From NCBI RefSeq assembly GCF_031583065.1, contig NZ_CP134053.1, forward strand, positions 4,340,001 through 4,404,000: a stretch of DNA of 64,000 nt, read 5' to 3'. The position numbers and the translations under genes were made by a program. The first letter of the stretch is position 1. The number at the start of each line of letters is the position of its first letter. Shown one piece after another: positions 7,988-55,265 of this stretch. The DNA comes from Streptomyces sp. CGMCC 4.7035. GTDB taxonomy: Bacteria > Actinomycetota > Actinomycetes > Streptomycetales > Streptomycetaceae. The notes beneath the pieces were generated by a model. That model ran no database searches. It was not told the DNA's origin and was given only the letters and a program-made list of their open reading frames with translations.

Positions 7988-8833
7988 TCAGCGGGCCGAG
8001 CGGGTGGCGCGCAGGATCAAGTCGGTGACGGGACCCGGGTCGCTCACGGCAACCGCGTGGGGCGCGCGCACCCTGACGGTGCGGGCGCCGGCACGGTCGG
8101 CCATCCACTCCTCGGCGGCCGGAGGGATGTTGCGGTCCTCGGTGGCCACGAGATACCAGCTGGGGATCTTCTTCCACGCTGCCGCGGTGGACTTCTCCTG
8201 GAGTGCGGCCAGGGCGATCGGGCGTTGCCCCACGGCCATCACCTGAGCGGTCGTGGCCGGGACACCTGCCGCGAACTGCTCCCGGAACAGCTCCTTCTTG
8301 ATGATCAACTCCTCACCCTGGCCACCCCCGGGCAACGGGTAGTACTGGGTGGCCGTGGCCTGTGCCAAGGTGCTGCCGGGGTACTTGGCGGTGAGCTCCA
8401 GGGCGCTCTCGCCGATCTCCGGGACGAAGGCGGCTATGTAGACCAGGGCCTTGACCCGCGGCGCGTCGGCCGCGGCGACGCTGATGACCGATCCGCCGTA
8501 GGAGTGGCCCACGAGGACGATCGGGCCCGGAATGCTGTCCAGGACGCTGCGGATGTAGGCGGCGTCGCTCGCCAGCCCGCGCAACGGCAGTGCCGGTGCC
8601 AGGACATGGTGGCCCTGCCGCTGGAGCCGCTCGACGACAGCGTTCCAACTGGAGGCGTCGGCGAACGCGCCGTGGATGAGGACGATGGTGGGCCTGCCCT
8701 CATGCGGGTGCCCACCGGTGGACCGGTCCTGCGCCGGTGACGGAGCGGAGAACGCGGCAACGGGTGTTCCCAGGGCGGCGGCGCCGGCCAGGAGTGAAAC
8801 GGTGACTGTGCGGCGAGAGATCGGTGAGTTCAT
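7988..8833 (-). CDS. Exported alpha/beta hydrolase (Tat-type signal)
   Basis: 281 residues. The N-terminus carries SRRTVTVSLLAG, a twin-Arg signal, with cleavage likely near AAFSA. The fold-1 hydrolase core then gives the oxyanion segment LIHGAFADASSW, nucleophile elbow GHSYGG (Ser), and catalytic His in APHAVAVSDP. It belongs to the same subfamily as the hydrolases at 8904, 24768 and 34506; only this copy is exported. These enzymes resemble EstC/plant hydroxynitrile-lyase-type esterases. It lies 70 bases downstream of the 9629-8904 paralogue on the same strand. Confidence 0.87.
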   Translation of the reverse strand: MNSPISRRTVTVSLLAGAAALGTPVAAFSAPSPAQDRSTGGHPHEGRPTIVLIHGAFADASSWNAVVERLQRQGHHVLAPALPLRGLASDAAYIRSVLDSIPGPIVLVGHSYGGSVISVAAADAPRVKALVYIAAFVPEIGESALELTAKYPGSTLAQATATQYYPLPGGGQGEELIIKKELFREQFAAGVPATTAQVMAVGQRPIALAALQEKSTAAAWKKIPSWYLVATEDRNIPPAAEEWMADRAGARTVRVRAPHAVAVSDPGPVTDLILRATRSAR

Positions 8834-8903
8834 CGTTCGCTTCCTGCGGTGGTGACAAAAGGTACGGTCCGGGGCCCGGCAGTGGGCCGACGCGCGGCAC
8901 GCT

Positions 8904-9629
8904 TCACCGGGCGGTGGCCCGGACCGCCTCGTGGATCAGTTCGGCGACACGCTCGGGGTGCGCGAGCATCACCAGGTGCGAGGAGTCGACCTCGACGGTG
9001 GTCATGCCGGCCCGCTGGTAGCCGTAGCGCTCGACATCGGGGTTGATCGTGCGGTCGGCCGAGGCGACCAGGCCCCAGGAGGGCTTGGTCTTCCACGCCG
9101 CGACGGGGGCCGCCTCGGTGAAGGCCTGCGCGGCCAGTGGACGCTGGGAGACGGCGAGGACGGAGGCGAGGCGGGGGTCGACGTCCGCGGCGAAGATCGA
9201 CGGGAACTTGTCGATCCGGACCGACACGTCGGTACCCGGAGTGGTCGAGCCCTCGATCGGGAAAGGCGTGTAGACGAGAGCGGCGGCGAGGTCGGAGTCC
9301 GGGAAACGGCCCTGCAGTTCGCCCAGGCTCTCGCCCTTCTCCAGGGCGTAGCCGGCCAGGTAGACCAGCGCTCTGACGTTGTCCTCCGCACCGGCGACGG
9401 TGATGACGGCACCGCCGTAGGAGTGTCCCACCAGGACGACCGGTCCGGGTATCTGACGGACGAGCGAGGCGATGTAGGCGGCGTCACCGAGCAGGCTGCG
9501 GTTGGGCACCGCCGGGGCCACCACGTCCAGCCCGCGGGCGATCAGTTCGGGGATGACCCGGGAGAAGCTGGATGCGTCGGCGAAGGCACCGTGGACCAGG
9601 ACGACGGTCGGGCTGCCGGACGAAGACAT
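8904..9629 (-). CDS. Alpha/beta hydrolase, EstC-like
   Basis: 241 residues from an ATG at 9629 preceded by AAGGAG at good spacing; the frame is open further upstream but that part is repeat-derived. It has LVHGAFADASSF, the nucleophile elbow GHSYGG, and a His in SSHLVMLAHP. No signal peptide, so cytoplasmic. It and the exported paralogue downstream are probably one transcript. The cap segment (EKGESLGELQGRFPD) is shared almost word for word with the copy at 34506. Confidence 0.9.
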   Translation of the reverse strand: MSSSGSPTVVLVHGAFADASSFSRVIPELIARGLDVVAPAVPNRSLLGDAAYIASLVRQIPGPVVLVGHSYGGAVITVAGAEDNVRALVYLAGYALEKGESLGELQGRFPDSDLAAALVYTPFPIEGSTTPGTDVSVRIDKFPSIFAADVDPRLASVLAVSQRPLAAQAFTEAAPVAAWKTKPSWGLVASADRTINPDVERYGYQRAGMTTVEVDSSHLVMLAHPERVAELIHEAVRATAR

Positions 9630-9687
9630 GACACAACTCCTTATGAAGGATGGTGACGGCTGATGGACGACCCGGCTGGTCGGTTGA

Positions 9688-10824
<1,137 letters not shown>

Positions 10825-10925
10825 CCGCGCGTCGACAGTAGTTGACCGATCCCGGTCGGCCACCATGGCGCAGCGACATCGCGAGATGCGGCTGTCGGTC
10901 GGACCGGGATCATCCGCGGCTTCAG

Positions 10926-10964
10926 CGGCAGGCCGCCGCCCCTCCGAGGGGCGGCGGCCTGCCG
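10926..10964. terminator. Very strong palindromic terminator
   Basis: 19-bp perfect arms at 10926-10944 and 10946-10964 separated by a single base, about 100 bases after the haloperoxidase-type stop. Extremely GC-rich stem. Confidence 0.8.
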
Positions 10965-49505: not shown

Positions 49506-52415
49506 TCATGAGCGTGGACGGGGAAGGGTCTCCAGGGCGCCGGCGAGGCCGGCGGCGTCGGTGCCGATCTTTCGGTAGACGGCGCAGAGCAGTTGCCTCA
49601 CGCCCTGCTCCGTCAGATGCAGTTCCTTCGCGACCACCGCCTCCGGGTGGCCCTGTGCCGACATCTCGGCTGCCCTGCGCTCAGGAGCGGTGAGCGTGTC
49701 CGTCTGCGTGTAGCGCAGGGGCAGCGGCCGCAGACCCGCCGCGGAGAGTTCTTCCCTGGCCTGGGTCGCCAGGGCCTCCGCGCCGCAGTGGACGGCGCCT
49801 TCGAGCCCCCGGTAGAGCCGGTCGGCGGCCTCCTGGAGCCGGCCGTTGCGGAACAGCGCCGCGCCGTGGCCGACCAGGGCCCGCGCCAGGTCGTACGAGG
49901 CCGGTGAGCGTTCCAGGTGCCCGACGGCTTCCGCGTGCAGGTCGAGCGCGGCCGGTCCGCCGGTCACCTCCGCCTCGGTGTGCAGCGCCCGGCCGATCGC
50001 GGAGGCCGCGCCGAAGTCCCGTGCCCGCTTGACGGCGTCCTGTGCCAGGCGGATCGCCCGATCGGGTGCGGTGGGGGCGACGGCGCACGCCAGGTCCAGC
50101 CGCCAGCGGCACCACGCCGGATTGCGCCAGGCCCGCGAGTCCAGCCACTTCCCGACGGCGGACAGCAGGCGCTCCGCCTCCTCGTGTCGCCCCTCGGCCA
50201 GGAGCAGTTCGGCGTACACCGTCCGGGGATCGGGGTAGACGACGGCGTTCGGGACGATTTCGCCGTAGCGGTAGGAGTCGGCGAGCCGGCGTGCGGCCGC
50301 GGTCCGGCCACGGGCCAGCAGGGTCTGGATGAGGATGCCGATGGCGAACCACTGGGCGGGCACCGCCTCCTCCACCCGGTCGGCGATGCGCAGGCCCTCG
50401 CGCACCAGTTCCTCCGCCTCGGCCAGGCAGCCACGGCGGAGGCGGATGTAGCCGAAGAGGGTCTGGCCCAAGGCCAGGTGGGAGCCGCGCCAGCCCTTCG
50501 CCTCGCACTCCGCGATGCCCCGGGTGAACAGCTCTTCGGCCCGGCGTGGCTGGTCGCAGTACATGAAGGTCAGGGCGACCGAGACCGGTACCTCGAAGCC
50601 CCGGTTCTCGTCGGTCCAGCTCAGCCCGCCGCGCAGGGCCTCCTCGGCGTAGTGCAGGACGGTCTTGCGCGACTCGCCGCGCAGCAGGGCGTCCCAGGCC
50701 CTCAGCCCGAGAATGTAGCGCTCCTCAAGACCGCGGCCGGTCAGTCGCTCGGCCAGCCGTGCCAGCCTGCGCGATCGGGCCGGTGAGTCGGGCTCGTCGG
50801 TGCGGCAGGAGCTCCACTGGAAGTGGTCGGCCTGCAGGCGCAGTCGCGTACGGGCGTTGATGGCCCCTCGCGCCTCGTTCTCGGCCACCGCGGCGGCCTC
50901 CGCCACTCGGTCGGTGTGGGCCAGCGCCTGGGTCAGCCGGTAGACGATGCGGGCGCGCAGCTCATGATCGGTCACGGGTTCCGCCAGCGCCGCACGCAGG
51001 TAGCCGACGGTCGCCGTGGGCTCGATCAGAAAGGTCGAGCCCGCGAGTTCGTGGAGCAGTGCGGTGCGCTCGTCCTGAGCGGGTGGCTCCCGCAGCGCCC
51101 GGGTCAGCACCCGCCGAGCGGCCTCCGGAGCCCCGGCCCGAAGGTACTCATGGGCGGCCTCCCGCAGGCATGCGACGGCCTCGGCGTTGCCCTCGCAGGG
51201 AACCTCCAGCAGGTGTCGGGCGGCCGCGGTGGCCCCGAGTCCCGCCGCGCGGACCGCCTCCGCGGCCGCGTTGTGCAGCCCGACCCGCAGAGCCGAGGGA
51301 ATGGCCCGGTAGACGGCTGTGGCGATGAGGGGATGAACGAACTCGAGGTCGCCGCCGGGCCCTTGGCCCGCGGCCAGGATCCGGACGGCGCGCAACTTCT
51401 CGGCAGCCTCTGCGGCCTGCTCCCTGCCGACCACCGCGATGGTGGCCGCGAGTTCCGGTGAGATGGACGTGCCGAGTACGGCGGCGGCCCAGGCGAAGCG
51501 GACGGTGGGCGCGCCGAGCCGCTGCAGGCACTCGATCAGTCCGGGACCCTTGACCGCCGAAGCGAGGTCCCGCAGCACGGGCAACTCGTCCCGGGTGCCC
51601 GTGACTTGCCGTTCCCCGAGCCGGATGGCGAGCTCGACCGTCTCAAAGGGGCTTCCGCCGGTGATCGCCCAGCATTCGCCGCAGAACTCGTCCTCGGCTC
51701 CCTCACCCACTTCGTCGCGCACGATCCGCGCCACGCCGTCGGCGGTGAGCGGCGCCAAGGCGTAGGGACGGTTTCCGTGGCGTTCGGCGAGCGAGCCGAA
51801 CGCGCCCGCCCCGGGCGGCAGTTCGTCGGGCCGGTAGGCGACGACGATCAGCAGCGGAAGGTCCGCGGCGCGTGGCGCGAAGGACGCCAGCCAGCTCAGC
51901 GACTCCTCGTCGGCCCAGTGCATGTCGTCCAGGAGCAGGACTACGGGTGCCCTCATCACCGTCAGGCGGGTCATGACCCAGTCCAGGCCGTCGCGCACCC
52001 CCGTCGGATCCGGCACCCGGGCGGTGCCCTCCGCCTCGAGCCCGAGCGCGGCGGCGACGATGTCGTACCAACTCCCCAGTGCCTCCCTGCGATCCGGCTC
52101 GTCCATCGACGCCAGGACCGGTTGCACGAGCTGGCGCACCACGCGGAACGCCAGGCCCTGCTCGTTCTCGCCGCCCTTGGCCGAAAGCACCGTGCATCCT
52201 AGTGCGGCGGCGCGGGCGCGCACATGGGTGAGCAGGGTCGTCTTGCCCAGTCCGGCCGAACCGGTGAAGGCGAGCAGTCCACCCTGTCGCGCTCGCCCGA
52301 CGCCGTCGGCGTCGGCGCGGAGGTCCGACAACGCGCGGCCGACCGCGTGGAGTTCCCGATGGCGCTCGAGCAACGTCGGATGCCCGGTGATCGGTTGCCG
52401 TGGTCCGCCCGCCAT
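49506..52415 (-). CDS. LuxR-family LAL regulator, divergent HTH
   Basis: 969 residues. AAA domain with Walker A GSAGLGKTT (52-60) and Walker B VVLLLDDMHWADE; long helical middle part; C-terminal HTH LTAPERRAAEMSAQGHPEAVVAKELHLTEQGVRQLLCAVYRKIG. The recognition helix reads GVRQLLCAVYRKIG, not the usual TVexHLxxVYRKLG. It lies 260 bases from the terpene synthase/P450 pair and on the same strand, so a role in controlling that pair is plausible. Confidence 0.92.
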   Translation of the reverse strand: MAGGPRQPITGHPTLLERHRELHAVGRALSDLRADADGVGRARQGGLLAFTGSAGLGKTTLLTHVRARAAALGCTVLSAKGGENEQGLAFRVVRQLVQPVLASMDEPDRREALGSWYDIVAAALGLEAEGTARVPDPTGVRDGLDWVMTRLTVMRAPVVLLLDDMHWADEESLSWLASFAPRAADLPLLIVVAYRPDELPPGAGAFGSLAERHGNRPYALAPLTADGVARIVRDEVGEGAEDEFCGECWAITGGSPFETVELAIRLGERQVTGTRDELPVLRDLASAVKGPGLIECLQRLGAPTVRFAWAAAVLGTSISPELAATIAVVGREQAAEAAEKLRAVRILAAGQGPGGDLEFVHPLIATAVYRAIPSALRVGLHNAAAEAVRAAGLGATAAARHLLEVPCEGNAEAVACLREAAHEYLRAGAPEAARRVLTRALREPPAQDERTALLHELAGSTFLIEPTATVGYLRAALAEPVTDHELRARIVYRLTQALAHTDRVAEAAAVAENEARGAINARTRLRLQADHFQWSSCRTDEPDSPARSRRLARLAERLTGRGLEERYILGLRAWDALLRGESRKTVLHYAEEALRGGLSWTDENRGFEVPVSVALTFMYCDQPRRAEELFTRGIAECEAKGWRGSHLALGQTLFGYIRLRRGCLAEAEELVREGLRIADRVEEAVPAQWFAIGILIQTLLARGRTAAARRLADSYRYGEIVPNAVVYPDPRTVYAELLLAEGRHEEAERLLSAVGKWLDSRAWRNPAWCRWRLDLACAVAPTAPDRAIRLAQDAVKRARDFGAASAIGRALHTEAEVTGGPAALDLHAEAVGHLERSPASYDLARALVGHGAALFRNGRLQEAADRLYRGLEGAVHCGAEALATQAREELSAAGLRPLPLRYTQTDTLTAPERRAAEMSAQGHPEAVVAKELHLTEQGVRQLLCAVYRKIGTDAAGLAGALETLPRPRS

Positions 52416-52573
52416 GTGCCCCTGCCGCTTCCTGCCGTCAGCTCCTGGAAGACAGCGTTGAGCGTACGCCTCCGTGGTGGCTCAGCAGAGGCTTTAAGAC
52501 GTCAGCACCTATGGAAAGAGTGAATCGCCGACGCCGCCGGTTTGCCCGTCCTCACCCCGGGTAACGCGGCTGA

Positions 52574-52597
52574 GCCGGGCTCCTTTCGGAGCCCGGC
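52574..52597 (-). terminator. Hairpin terminator after the terpene operon
   Basis: GCCGGGCTCC and GGAGCCCGGC with a 4-base loop, about 80 bases past the terpene synthase stop. Between the two lie three near-copies of CCGACCGGTACGGGCGT (52626-52692). Confidence 0.7.
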
Positions 52598-52675
52598 AGG
52601 TGGGCCCACAGGGTCCGGCGTCATCGACCGACCAGTACGGGCGTACGGGCCTCACGCGCCGACCGGTACGGGCGT

Positions 52676-53683
52676 TTACGGGCCGACCGGTAGGGCGGCC
52701 GTGTCCGCGTAGCGTGGCACCTCGCGCGACCAGTAGTAGCAACCACGGATCCAGTCGGCCATGCCTTCCACGTAGCCCATGCCGACGGGGCTCAGTTCCG
52801 GCTTGATCTCCCGGTGGAGCCGCTCGAACTCATGGATGGTGTCGTTGATCCGCCTTGTCGCCAGTACGACGGCCTCCGGCAGGGAGCAGCCGTACTCATG
52901 ACGGTAGGCAAGGGCCAGATTGATCACTCCGCCCGCCCGTTGCTCCTTCACCGCGGAGAAGAGGTCCGGAATCCACACCGCCGCATCGGCCGACAGTCGC
53001 CGCAGGTGCCGCACGGCGGGGTGGGAGAGCTCGTCGAGGGCCAGTTCACCGGGCTGTGCTGCCTCGCACAGCGGGTAGAAGGGCTCGACGCCCGCGGTGA
53101 GCGACCGAATCGAACCGCACAGCCCGATCCGTACGCGGAGAGGGTCGGTCTGGGCCACCGCCTCGTACAACAGGCCGTGCACGTACTCGCGGCTGTGCCA
53201 TGCCCATCGCGCGGCCTGTGCGGGGGTGCAGTGCTCCCTGACCTGCCGGTGAAGATCGGCCAGGGCGGCGCCGAGAGGAGTCATGGGCGGCCGGCCGTCG
53301 CGCAGGATGCCGACGCTCTCGCAGAGCATCGGCAGCAGCCGGCTCGGCCACCGTCGGCCGATCTCTTCCGCGCGGTCGTCGAAGACGAACTGGTAGGCGA
53401 TCTGATTGGCCACGATCTGGAGCATGTCGGCGTTCATCGTGGGGCTGTTGTAAGAGGCGAGCTGGGCGGGGCGGGTGTAGCCGATCATCGCCCCCACGTC
53501 GGGGTCATCGGTGAGCCCGTATTTGCGTAACCAATTCTCGACACCGGCCATGGCCTCGGGTTCATGCGGATTACTGAGGAACGGAAAGGGCATGTAGAGC
53601 TCGGCCTCGATCAGCTCCTTCAGGCTTCCGGCCGAAATTCCACCGCGCGATGCGGGCACGCTGCCTTCATGCGTCGTCGGCAC
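52676..53683 (-). CDS. Class I terpene synthase, atypical NSE motif
   Basis: 335 residues from GTG 53683 with GGGAAGG 9 bases upstream. Terpene cyclase fold: Asp-rich motif FDDRAEE (DDxxE, about 102-107), pyrophosphate sensor Arg at about 193 in CGSIRSL, then PDLFSAVKE at 239-247 where the Mg-binding NSE triad normally reads NDLFSxxKE, and a C-terminal RY pair (VPRY). Asn is replaced by Pro239; Ser243 and Glu247 remain. It overlaps the P450 gene by 17 bases, so the two are translated together. The product (probably a sesqui- or diterpene) cannot be predicted. Confidence 0.9.
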   Translation of the reverse strand: MPTTHEGSVPASRGGISAGSLKELIEAELYMPFPFLSNPHEPEAMAGVENWLRKYGLTDDPDVGAMIGYTRPAQLASYNSPTMNADMLQIVANQIAYQFVFDDRAEEIGRRWPSRLLPMLCESVGILRDGRPPMTPLGAALADLHRQVREHCTPAQAARWAWHSREYVHGLLYEAVAQTDPLRVRIGLCGSIRSLTAGVEPFYPLCEAAQPGELALDELSHPAVRHLRRLSADAAVWIPDLFSAVKEQRAGGVINLALAYRHEYGCSLPEAVVLATRRINDTIHEFERLHREIKPELSPVGMGYVEGMADWIRGCYYWSREVPRYADTAALPVGP

Positions 53684-55265
53684 CTTTGTCACCTTCCCTT
53701 CGGCAGTCCCGTTTCCGGGGTGTCGCCCTGATTCCGGTTGTGAGGGAATTCTGCTCGGATCGCGAGGGACTTTCGCGTAAACCACAAGTGACTTCCGCGC
53801 GGGGGGCGGGAGACGATTGCGCGGGGCAGGACGGGTCTTTGCCCGGGATACAAGGAGCCTGCGCCGCCGCTTCCCCGGCCGACGCGGGCGAACGACGCTG
53901 CTCACAGATCATCTCCAGCGACCTCGGCCCGAGCGTCGCCGCGGGGCGCGGTTGCTCGACGTGCCCTGGCAGCGGGCGCAGACGCCAGCGACTGGCGATC
54001 GTCGCGACGGCCAGCGTGGCCTCGGCCAGGGCGAACGTGTCGCCGATGCATTTGCGGCCACCTGCCGCGAAGGGCAGCATCGCGCCGCTCGGTACGGCCG
54101 TGGCCCGCCCCGGCAGCCAGCGTTCGGGAAGGAACCGGTCGGGATCGGGGAACGACGCCGGATCGTGGTGCAGGAGGTAGGGGCTGTACAGGACGGTGGC
54201 TCCCCTGGGGAGCCGGAGCCCGGCGAGGTCCGTCTCCCTGGTCGTGATGCGGGTGAAGAGCCAGCCGGGCGGATACACGCGCAGAGTCTCGGTGATGAGG
54301 CAGCGGGTGTAGACCAGGCGCGACAGCTCCTGCGGGCCGGGCCGCCGCCCGCCGGCGAGAAGCACGTCGACCTCGGAGTGCAGCCGGCTCTCCACCTCCG
54401 GATGACGGGGCAGAAGACTGAAGACGGAGCCCAGACACATCGCCGTGCTCTCGACTCCGGTGAGCAGGAGCGTGATCAGTTGGTCGTGGATCTCCTGTCC
54501 GGTGACCGCCGCTCCCCTGTGGTCTCCCCCGGCGTGGTCTGCCTCGGCGGCCAGCAGGGTCCCCAGCAGATCGTCGCGGGGCGAGCCCCGTCGACGCTCG
54601 TCGACGGCCGCGTCGATGATCGCGTGGAAGCGGACGAAGGCGCGCCGATAGCGGCGGTTGGCGGGCGTGGGAATGCGGAACAGCGGGGCGAGGGGCATGA
54701 CCGTACGGATGAACAGGCCCCGGACGAGGGCCGCGAGGCAGTCGCGTACCTCGGCGACGGTCGCGGCGTCGAGTGCGTCGGAGAGGAGGACACGGCTGGT
54801 CACCCGGGTGGTCAGAGCCAGCATCGCCGCGCTCACGTCGACCTTCTCCCCGGGCCGCCAGTCACGGAACACGGCCTCGGCCTCCTCCGCCATCACCCGC
54901 GTGTAGTCGGTGATGCGGGACGGGCGGAAGGTGGGCTGGATGAGCCTGCGCTGGCGTCGATGCTCCTCGTGACCGCAGGTCACAAGACCGCCGCCCATCA
55001 GCGGCCGGAGCCTGTCGTACTGCGGACCGCCCTTGTCGAAGGTGCGCGTGTCCATGAGTATCCGGTGGACCAGCTCCGGGTGGCACGCCAGCCAGGCACG
55101 CTGGAGGCCCAGTCGTATCTCGACCAGATCCCCGTGTGCGGGTAAGGAATTCAGAAAGGCCAGCGGACGGCGGAACAGAGTGATACCGTGGCCGACGAAT
55201 GGGAATATGCCTGGTGCATTACCCACCGTCCATGCTCGCTCTGGTTGCGGTTCGACACCGCTCAT
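53667..55265 (-). CDS. Cytochrome P450 with C-terminal extension
   Basis: 532 residues from ATG 55265 with GGAAGG upstream. I-helix LLLTGVESTAM, ExxR motif ETLRVYPPGW, PERW segment and haem loop FAAGGRKCIG with the ligand Cys. A normal P450 end is reached near LEMICEQRR; a polar tail of about 74 residues follows and overlaps the terpene synthase start. It should oxidise the terpene made by its partner. Electron donors are not encoded nearby. Class resembles bacterial terpene-cluster P450s such as CYP170. Confidence 0.9.
   Translation of the reverse strand: MSGVEPQPERAWTVGNAPGIFPFVGHGITLFRRPLAFLNSLPAHGDLVEIRLGLQRAWLACHPELVHRILMDTRTFDKGGPQYDRLRPLMGGGLVTCGHEEHRRQRRLIQPTFRPSRITDYTRVMAEEAEAVFRDWRPGEKVDVSAAMLALTTRVTSRVLLSDALDAATVAEVRDCLAALVRGLFIRTVMPLAPLFRIPTPANRRYRRAFVRFHAIIDAAVDERRRGSPRDDLLGTLLAAEADHAGGDHRGAAVTGQEIHDQLITLLLTGVESTAMCLGSVFSLLPRHPEVESRLHSEVDVLLAGGRRPGPQELSRLVYTRCLITETLRVYPPGWLFTRITTRETDLAGLRLPRGATVLYSPYLLHHDPASFPDPDRFLPERWLPGRATAVPSGAMLPFAAGGRKCIGDTFALAEATLAVATIASRWRLRPLPGHVEQPRPAATLGPRSLEMICEQRRSPASAGEAAAQAPCIPGKDPSCPAQSSPAPRAEVTCGLRESPSRSEQNSLTTGIRATPRKRDCRREGDKGADDA

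Follow-up and report, generated by a model that had tools for sequence, protein, structure and literature searches.

The window analysed here is a stretch of 64,000 nucleotides from the genome of Streptomyces sp. CGMCC 4.7035 (contig NZ_CP134053.1, positions 4,340,001 to 4,404,000). Three of its genes, all on the minus strand, are considered: a cytochrome P450 gene (53667..55265, 532 amino acids (aa)), a class I terpene synthase gene of the (-)-alpha-amorphene synthase family (52676..53683, 335 aa, GTG start) and, downstream of the synthase, a gene for a large LAL-like regulator (49506..52415, 969 aa). A first-pass annotation had noticed that the P450 and synthase genes overlap by 17 bases, and that the synthase combines the metal motif DDRAEE and a sensor arginine, exactly 46 residues before the Asn-Ser-Glu (NSE) position, with the altered NSE motif PDLFSAVKE. 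The overlap (53667..53683, minus strand) and all of these motifs are borne out when read from the sequence.

The synthase and its characterised relative

The synthase passes the curated NCBIfam model for (-)-alpha-amorphene synthase, NF041563 (584.2 bits against a cut-off of 540), matches PF19086 in a Pfam profile search, and has an AlphaFold model (mean predicted local distance difference test score, pLDDT, 91.1) whose structure resembles class I terpene synthases. In addition to the class I fold it possesses the Asp-rich metal motif DDRAEE (residues 102-107, 53363..53380, minus strand), the pyrophosphate sensor Arg193 (53105..53107, minus strand) and a C-terminal RY pair (residues 324-325, 52709..52714, minus strand), as expected of this class. 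The full Asn-Ser-Glu triad is absent: in the motif PDLFSAVKE (residues 239-247, 52943..52969, minus strand), Ser243 and Glu247 are kept, and Pro239 (codon CCG, 52967-52969, minus strand) stands instead of Asn, which is the usual first residue according to the available text of two papers (PMC5082573, PMC8450962). A frameshift or pseudogene was ruled out, the reading frame being open and the anchor residues intact.

The available text of Rabe et al. 2016 (PMC5082573) reports that a recombinant enzyme of S. viridochromogenes DSM 40736 (WP_039931950) converts farnesyl diphosphate (FPP) to alpha-amorphene as its single product, and forms no product from geranyl diphosphate (GPP) or geranylgeranyl diphosphate (GGPP). 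The NSE triad is given there as 242-PDLFSAVKE, with Pro for the usual Asn "obviously without effect on the enzyme function", and close homologues in more than 40 genome-sequenced streptomycetes are described as having a triad that starts with Pro or Ala in all cases, a family trait to which Pro239 of the window synthase conforms. The window synthase and the S. viridochromogenes gene (locus L095) encode identical residues at 242 of 335 positions (72%), compared helix segments being 73-96% identical, and have in common PDLFSAVKE, DDRAE, the sensor Arg 46 residues before the NSE motif and the RY pair. The published residue number 242 fits a start three codons upstream, for which the window has an equivalent GTG at 53692 (minus strand), 9 bases upstream of the called start. 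The family of the window synthase is known and characterised, and its motif variant is already published.

The first-pass annotation had read the proline as the mark of a weakened cyclase or of an unusual product, a reading favoured by the prevalence of Asn at this position. We now regard it as very improbable, because a characterised relative with the identical Pro motif makes a single known product, so that the proline signals neither decay nor novelty. The purified relative is active and takes FPP, not GPP or GGPP (the available text of the report gives no rate); the other catalytic and anchor residues of the window synthase are intact in an open frame, and Pro or Ala is present in every family sequence examined, through repeated exchange. 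The false lead is thus closed: proline predicts neither a new product nor a dead enzyme. The Asn-Ser-Glu triad is a usual rather than a required feature of class I enzymes, with an active exception within the amorphene synthase family. Altered metal use in a synthase without the NSE Asn is possible.

Proline and alanine across the family

The first NSE residue was tabulated in 120 proteins listed of 285 matches (the window synthase, which fills two of the 121 rows of the table, being among them and counted once), giving 94 Pro, 26 Ala and no Asn, and in 94 distinct genomic sequences, from which duplicates and other terpene synthases of the CGMCC 4.7035 genome (L002-L004) had been removed beforehand, giving 78 Pro, 16 Ala and no Asn. 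A private mutation of the CGMCC 4.7035 strain was ruled out by the absence of Asn from both sets. Every one of the 120 listed proteins has an Arg 46 residues before the NSE motif, and Asp240, Leu241, Ser243, Lys246 and Glu247 are invariant in 90 aligned sequences; because these residues do not vary and the Arg spacing is constant, the motif residues are not due to chance. In an alignment of 54 proteins hand-picked from the 120 listed, D102, D103, A105, E106, Arg193 and the RY pair are invariant. The anchors listed by Hou and Dickschat in the available text of PMC8450962 map to P81, L88, R159, R193, E207, D240, N255, W318 and the RY pair, none of which varies among the same 54 proteins.

All 65 named homologous loci belong to Streptomyces, and all 65 have Pro; this last count is biased, because one of the six patterns with which the loci were fetched contained WIPD, and the Ala forms come from the protein listing and the genome search. 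Of 392 genomes of the genus, 53 carry the family (E 1e-40 or better), and of 391 genomes from the order 52 carry it with at least 63% identity, the next matches (E 1e-20 or better) being at most 33% identical. No Asn-keeping intermediates were found in the 391 genomes of the order, in each of which five candidates were scored, and since nothing lies between these two levels of identity the step from Asn to Pro or Ala could not be dated. An earlier survey (PMC6604706), in its available text, records the family for six of the species that it covered.

A tree was built, without the motif columns and without an outgroup, from 90 of the 94 distinct sequences, the other four (all Pro) having been removed because their alignment held a stop codon. 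Pro and Ala interchange on this tree with a minimum of six changes by parsimony, at least five of which are forced by supported branches; without an outgroup, these changes are unpolarised. The Pro substitution itself was published by Rabe et al., and the repeated exchange is, relative to the available text of that paper, an addition from the present tree. We infer, short of proof, that the loss of Asn preceded the spread of the amorphene synthase family and that Pro may serve about as well as Ala. A more speculative proposal, which we put forward only tentatively and think somewhat doubtful, is that an entire clade of class I cyclases binds the third Mg2+ with no Asn ligand, exchanging Pro and Ala at the site while Asn is absent from every sequence examined; selection may act against Asn there, and the Ser and Glu of the triad may be all that the trinuclear cluster requires.

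A conserved cassette of P450, synthase and regulator

An overlap of exactly 17 bases recurs in 78 of the 94 distinct loci, and in 15 others the P450 and synthase genes are separated by 5 to 113 bases. In the remaining locus, L073 (Streptomyces sp. SW4, 8177-10960), a single open frame spans the two genes, possibly a natural fusion or a sequencing frameshift; this arrangement was found at one of the 94 loci and at none of nine further loci. A Shine-Dalgarno-like sequence, AAGGGAAGG (53692-53700, minus strand), is located near the overlap in the window.

All 65 named loci have a P450 homologue upstream of the synthase and in the same orientation (matched in two pieces in L039 and L050), and a P450 is present in all 97 distinct loci of a set comprising the 94 distinct sequences and three further ones. 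In 62 of the 65 named loci the synthase is followed, in the same orientation, by a LAL-like gene, which at some of them was matched only partly. Two of the three misses, L043 and L048, are explained by contigs that end 230 and 116 bases past the synthase match; in the third, L034, the gene was not found in the 10 kb downstream flank. Other neighbours in the window recur rarely (E 1e-20, flanks of up to 10 kb): IclR, glpK and RsbW-like genes in 3 of the 65 named loci, a sarcosine oxidase alpha-like gene in one and a gamma-like gene in none. Because the P450 and LAL-like genes are conserved whereas the other neighbours are rare, the P450, the synthase and the regulator seem to move together; the three genes are a real conserved cassette. 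Streptomyces sp. TP-A0356 possesses two P450-synthase cassettes, L034 and L035, on a single contig with about 208 kb between them, and a LAL-like gene was found beside L035 only; the L034 synthase gene and L005 are one and the same, and this row lies closest to the window synthase in the tree.

The P450 (Pfam p450, 215.6 bits) matches PDB 3dbg, which we take to be CYP170A1, at 304 bits, and is also related to pentalenene oxygenase. It falls below the cut-offs of both NF045812 (pentalenene oxygenase; 420.6 against 800 bits) and NF051859 (albaflavenone monooxygenase; 407.3 against 700 bits), and is thus a relative and not a member of either group. Beyond position 457, where most relatives' matches stop, the P450 continues for about 75 more residues (53667-53894), a C-terminal tail that extends to the conserved overlap with the synthase.

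LAL regulators combine an N-terminal AAA ATPase domain with a C-terminal LuxR helix-turn-helix in about 900-1000 aa. The first-pass annotation had placed such a regulator alongside the pair; a 969-aa gene with an AAA_16 domain (Pfam) is indeed there on the same strand, but its label is weakly supported, being derived from its size, its ATPase domain and a faint C-terminal NarL match (E 0.071, residues 890-950). No LuxR/GerE helix-turn-helix in this protein reached E 1e-3 in Pfam. Within 49506-55265, TTA codons occur at codon 52 of the synthase and codons 41 and 496 of the P450, and none in the LAL-like gene; 49 of the 97 loci have a TTA inside the matched part of the synthase or P450. These codons make bldA control of the cassette possible.

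Proposed function and comparison with known systems

Taken together, the locus is very probably a Streptomyces (-)-alpha-amorphene synthase with a partner P450 and a LAL-like regulator. FPP would be bound by the usual three Mg2+ ions, two of them held by the Asp-rich motif and the third by Ser243 and Glu247, with water or diphosphate filling the place of the absent Asn side chain. Arg193 and Arg324-Tyr325 would grip the diphosphate as the enzyme closes, and a cadinane-type cyclisation would yield the hydrocarbon (-)-alpha-amorphene. The P450, which is probably co-transcribed with the synthase and coupled to it in translation by the 17-base overlap, would then oxidise alpha-amorphene, and the LAL-like protein is probably the activator of the cassette; for the P450 and regulator steps, gene order and the overlap are what is seen directly.

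Cyclase products can shift with few residue changes, and a family member at 72% identity to the characterised enzyme might have drifted to another sesquiterpene, so that alpha-amorphene synthase would be right as a family name and wrong as a product. Such drift is improbable, as the curated equivalog cut-off is passed, the compared helix segments retain the identity noted above, and the upstream P450 and downstream LAL-like gene are common to the characterised enzyme's locus. A synthase of S. chartreusis NRRL 3882, likened by description only, also makes alpha-amorphene according to the available text of a review.

Several points nevertheless weigh against the assignment of a (-)-alpha-amorphene synthase with a partner P450. 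Binding of the third Mg2+ without Asn is a proposal, and the AlphaFold model holds no metals. The overall identity leaves a different product possible, the C-terminal helices 268-326 being only 73% identical to those of the characterised enzyme. The action of the P450 on alpha-amorphene is suggested by gene order, and the P450 may be broken at L039 and L050. Kinship of the levinoid (lev) cluster, known here from a review's description, to the window genes is no more than a possibility. No oxidised P450 product for the amorphene synthase family was established in the literature searched, in which subscription journals were mostly not covered. Phaterpene, in the available text of PMC12860625, has a 6/5-fused skeleton. 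Two points keep their interest: the way in which a class I cyclase binds its third Mg2+ once Asn is gone, and the compound into which the P450 of this family would convert alpha-amorphene.

Elsewhere in the CGMCC 4.7035 genome, a single 726-aa frame (G000:C1:2571933-2573993) contains two terpene synthase matches in tandem, a layout like that of geosmin synthase, and there is one further terpene synthase match (G000:C1:1488402-1489070).

Epi-isozizaene synthase of the albaflavenone pathway also has a clustered P450, but this cyclase is only about 23% identical to the window synthase, and its NSE triad starts with Asn, as quoted for the N. brevicatena enzyme in the available text of PMC10509563, rather than with Pro; the window P450 likewise falls short of the albaflavenone model. 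The S. viridochromogenes DSM 40736 enzyme differs from the window synthase at 28% of residues, and its product is the one that is known; its locus has the same order, with a P450 upstream and a LAL-like gene downstream of the synthase. The suggestion that the window holds a candidate uncharacterised pathway is retained in part: the cassette is conserved, but the synthase family is characterised, and a P450-containing cluster has already been published as a source of alpha-amorphene-type levinoids. The available text of a review (PMC12299652), citing Liu et al. 2024 (J Nat Prod 87:876), attributes four such levinoids, which are P450-modified, to the lev cluster; likened by description only, this cluster resembles the window in being a P450-containing terpene cluster associated with alpha-amorphene-type sesquiterpenoids.
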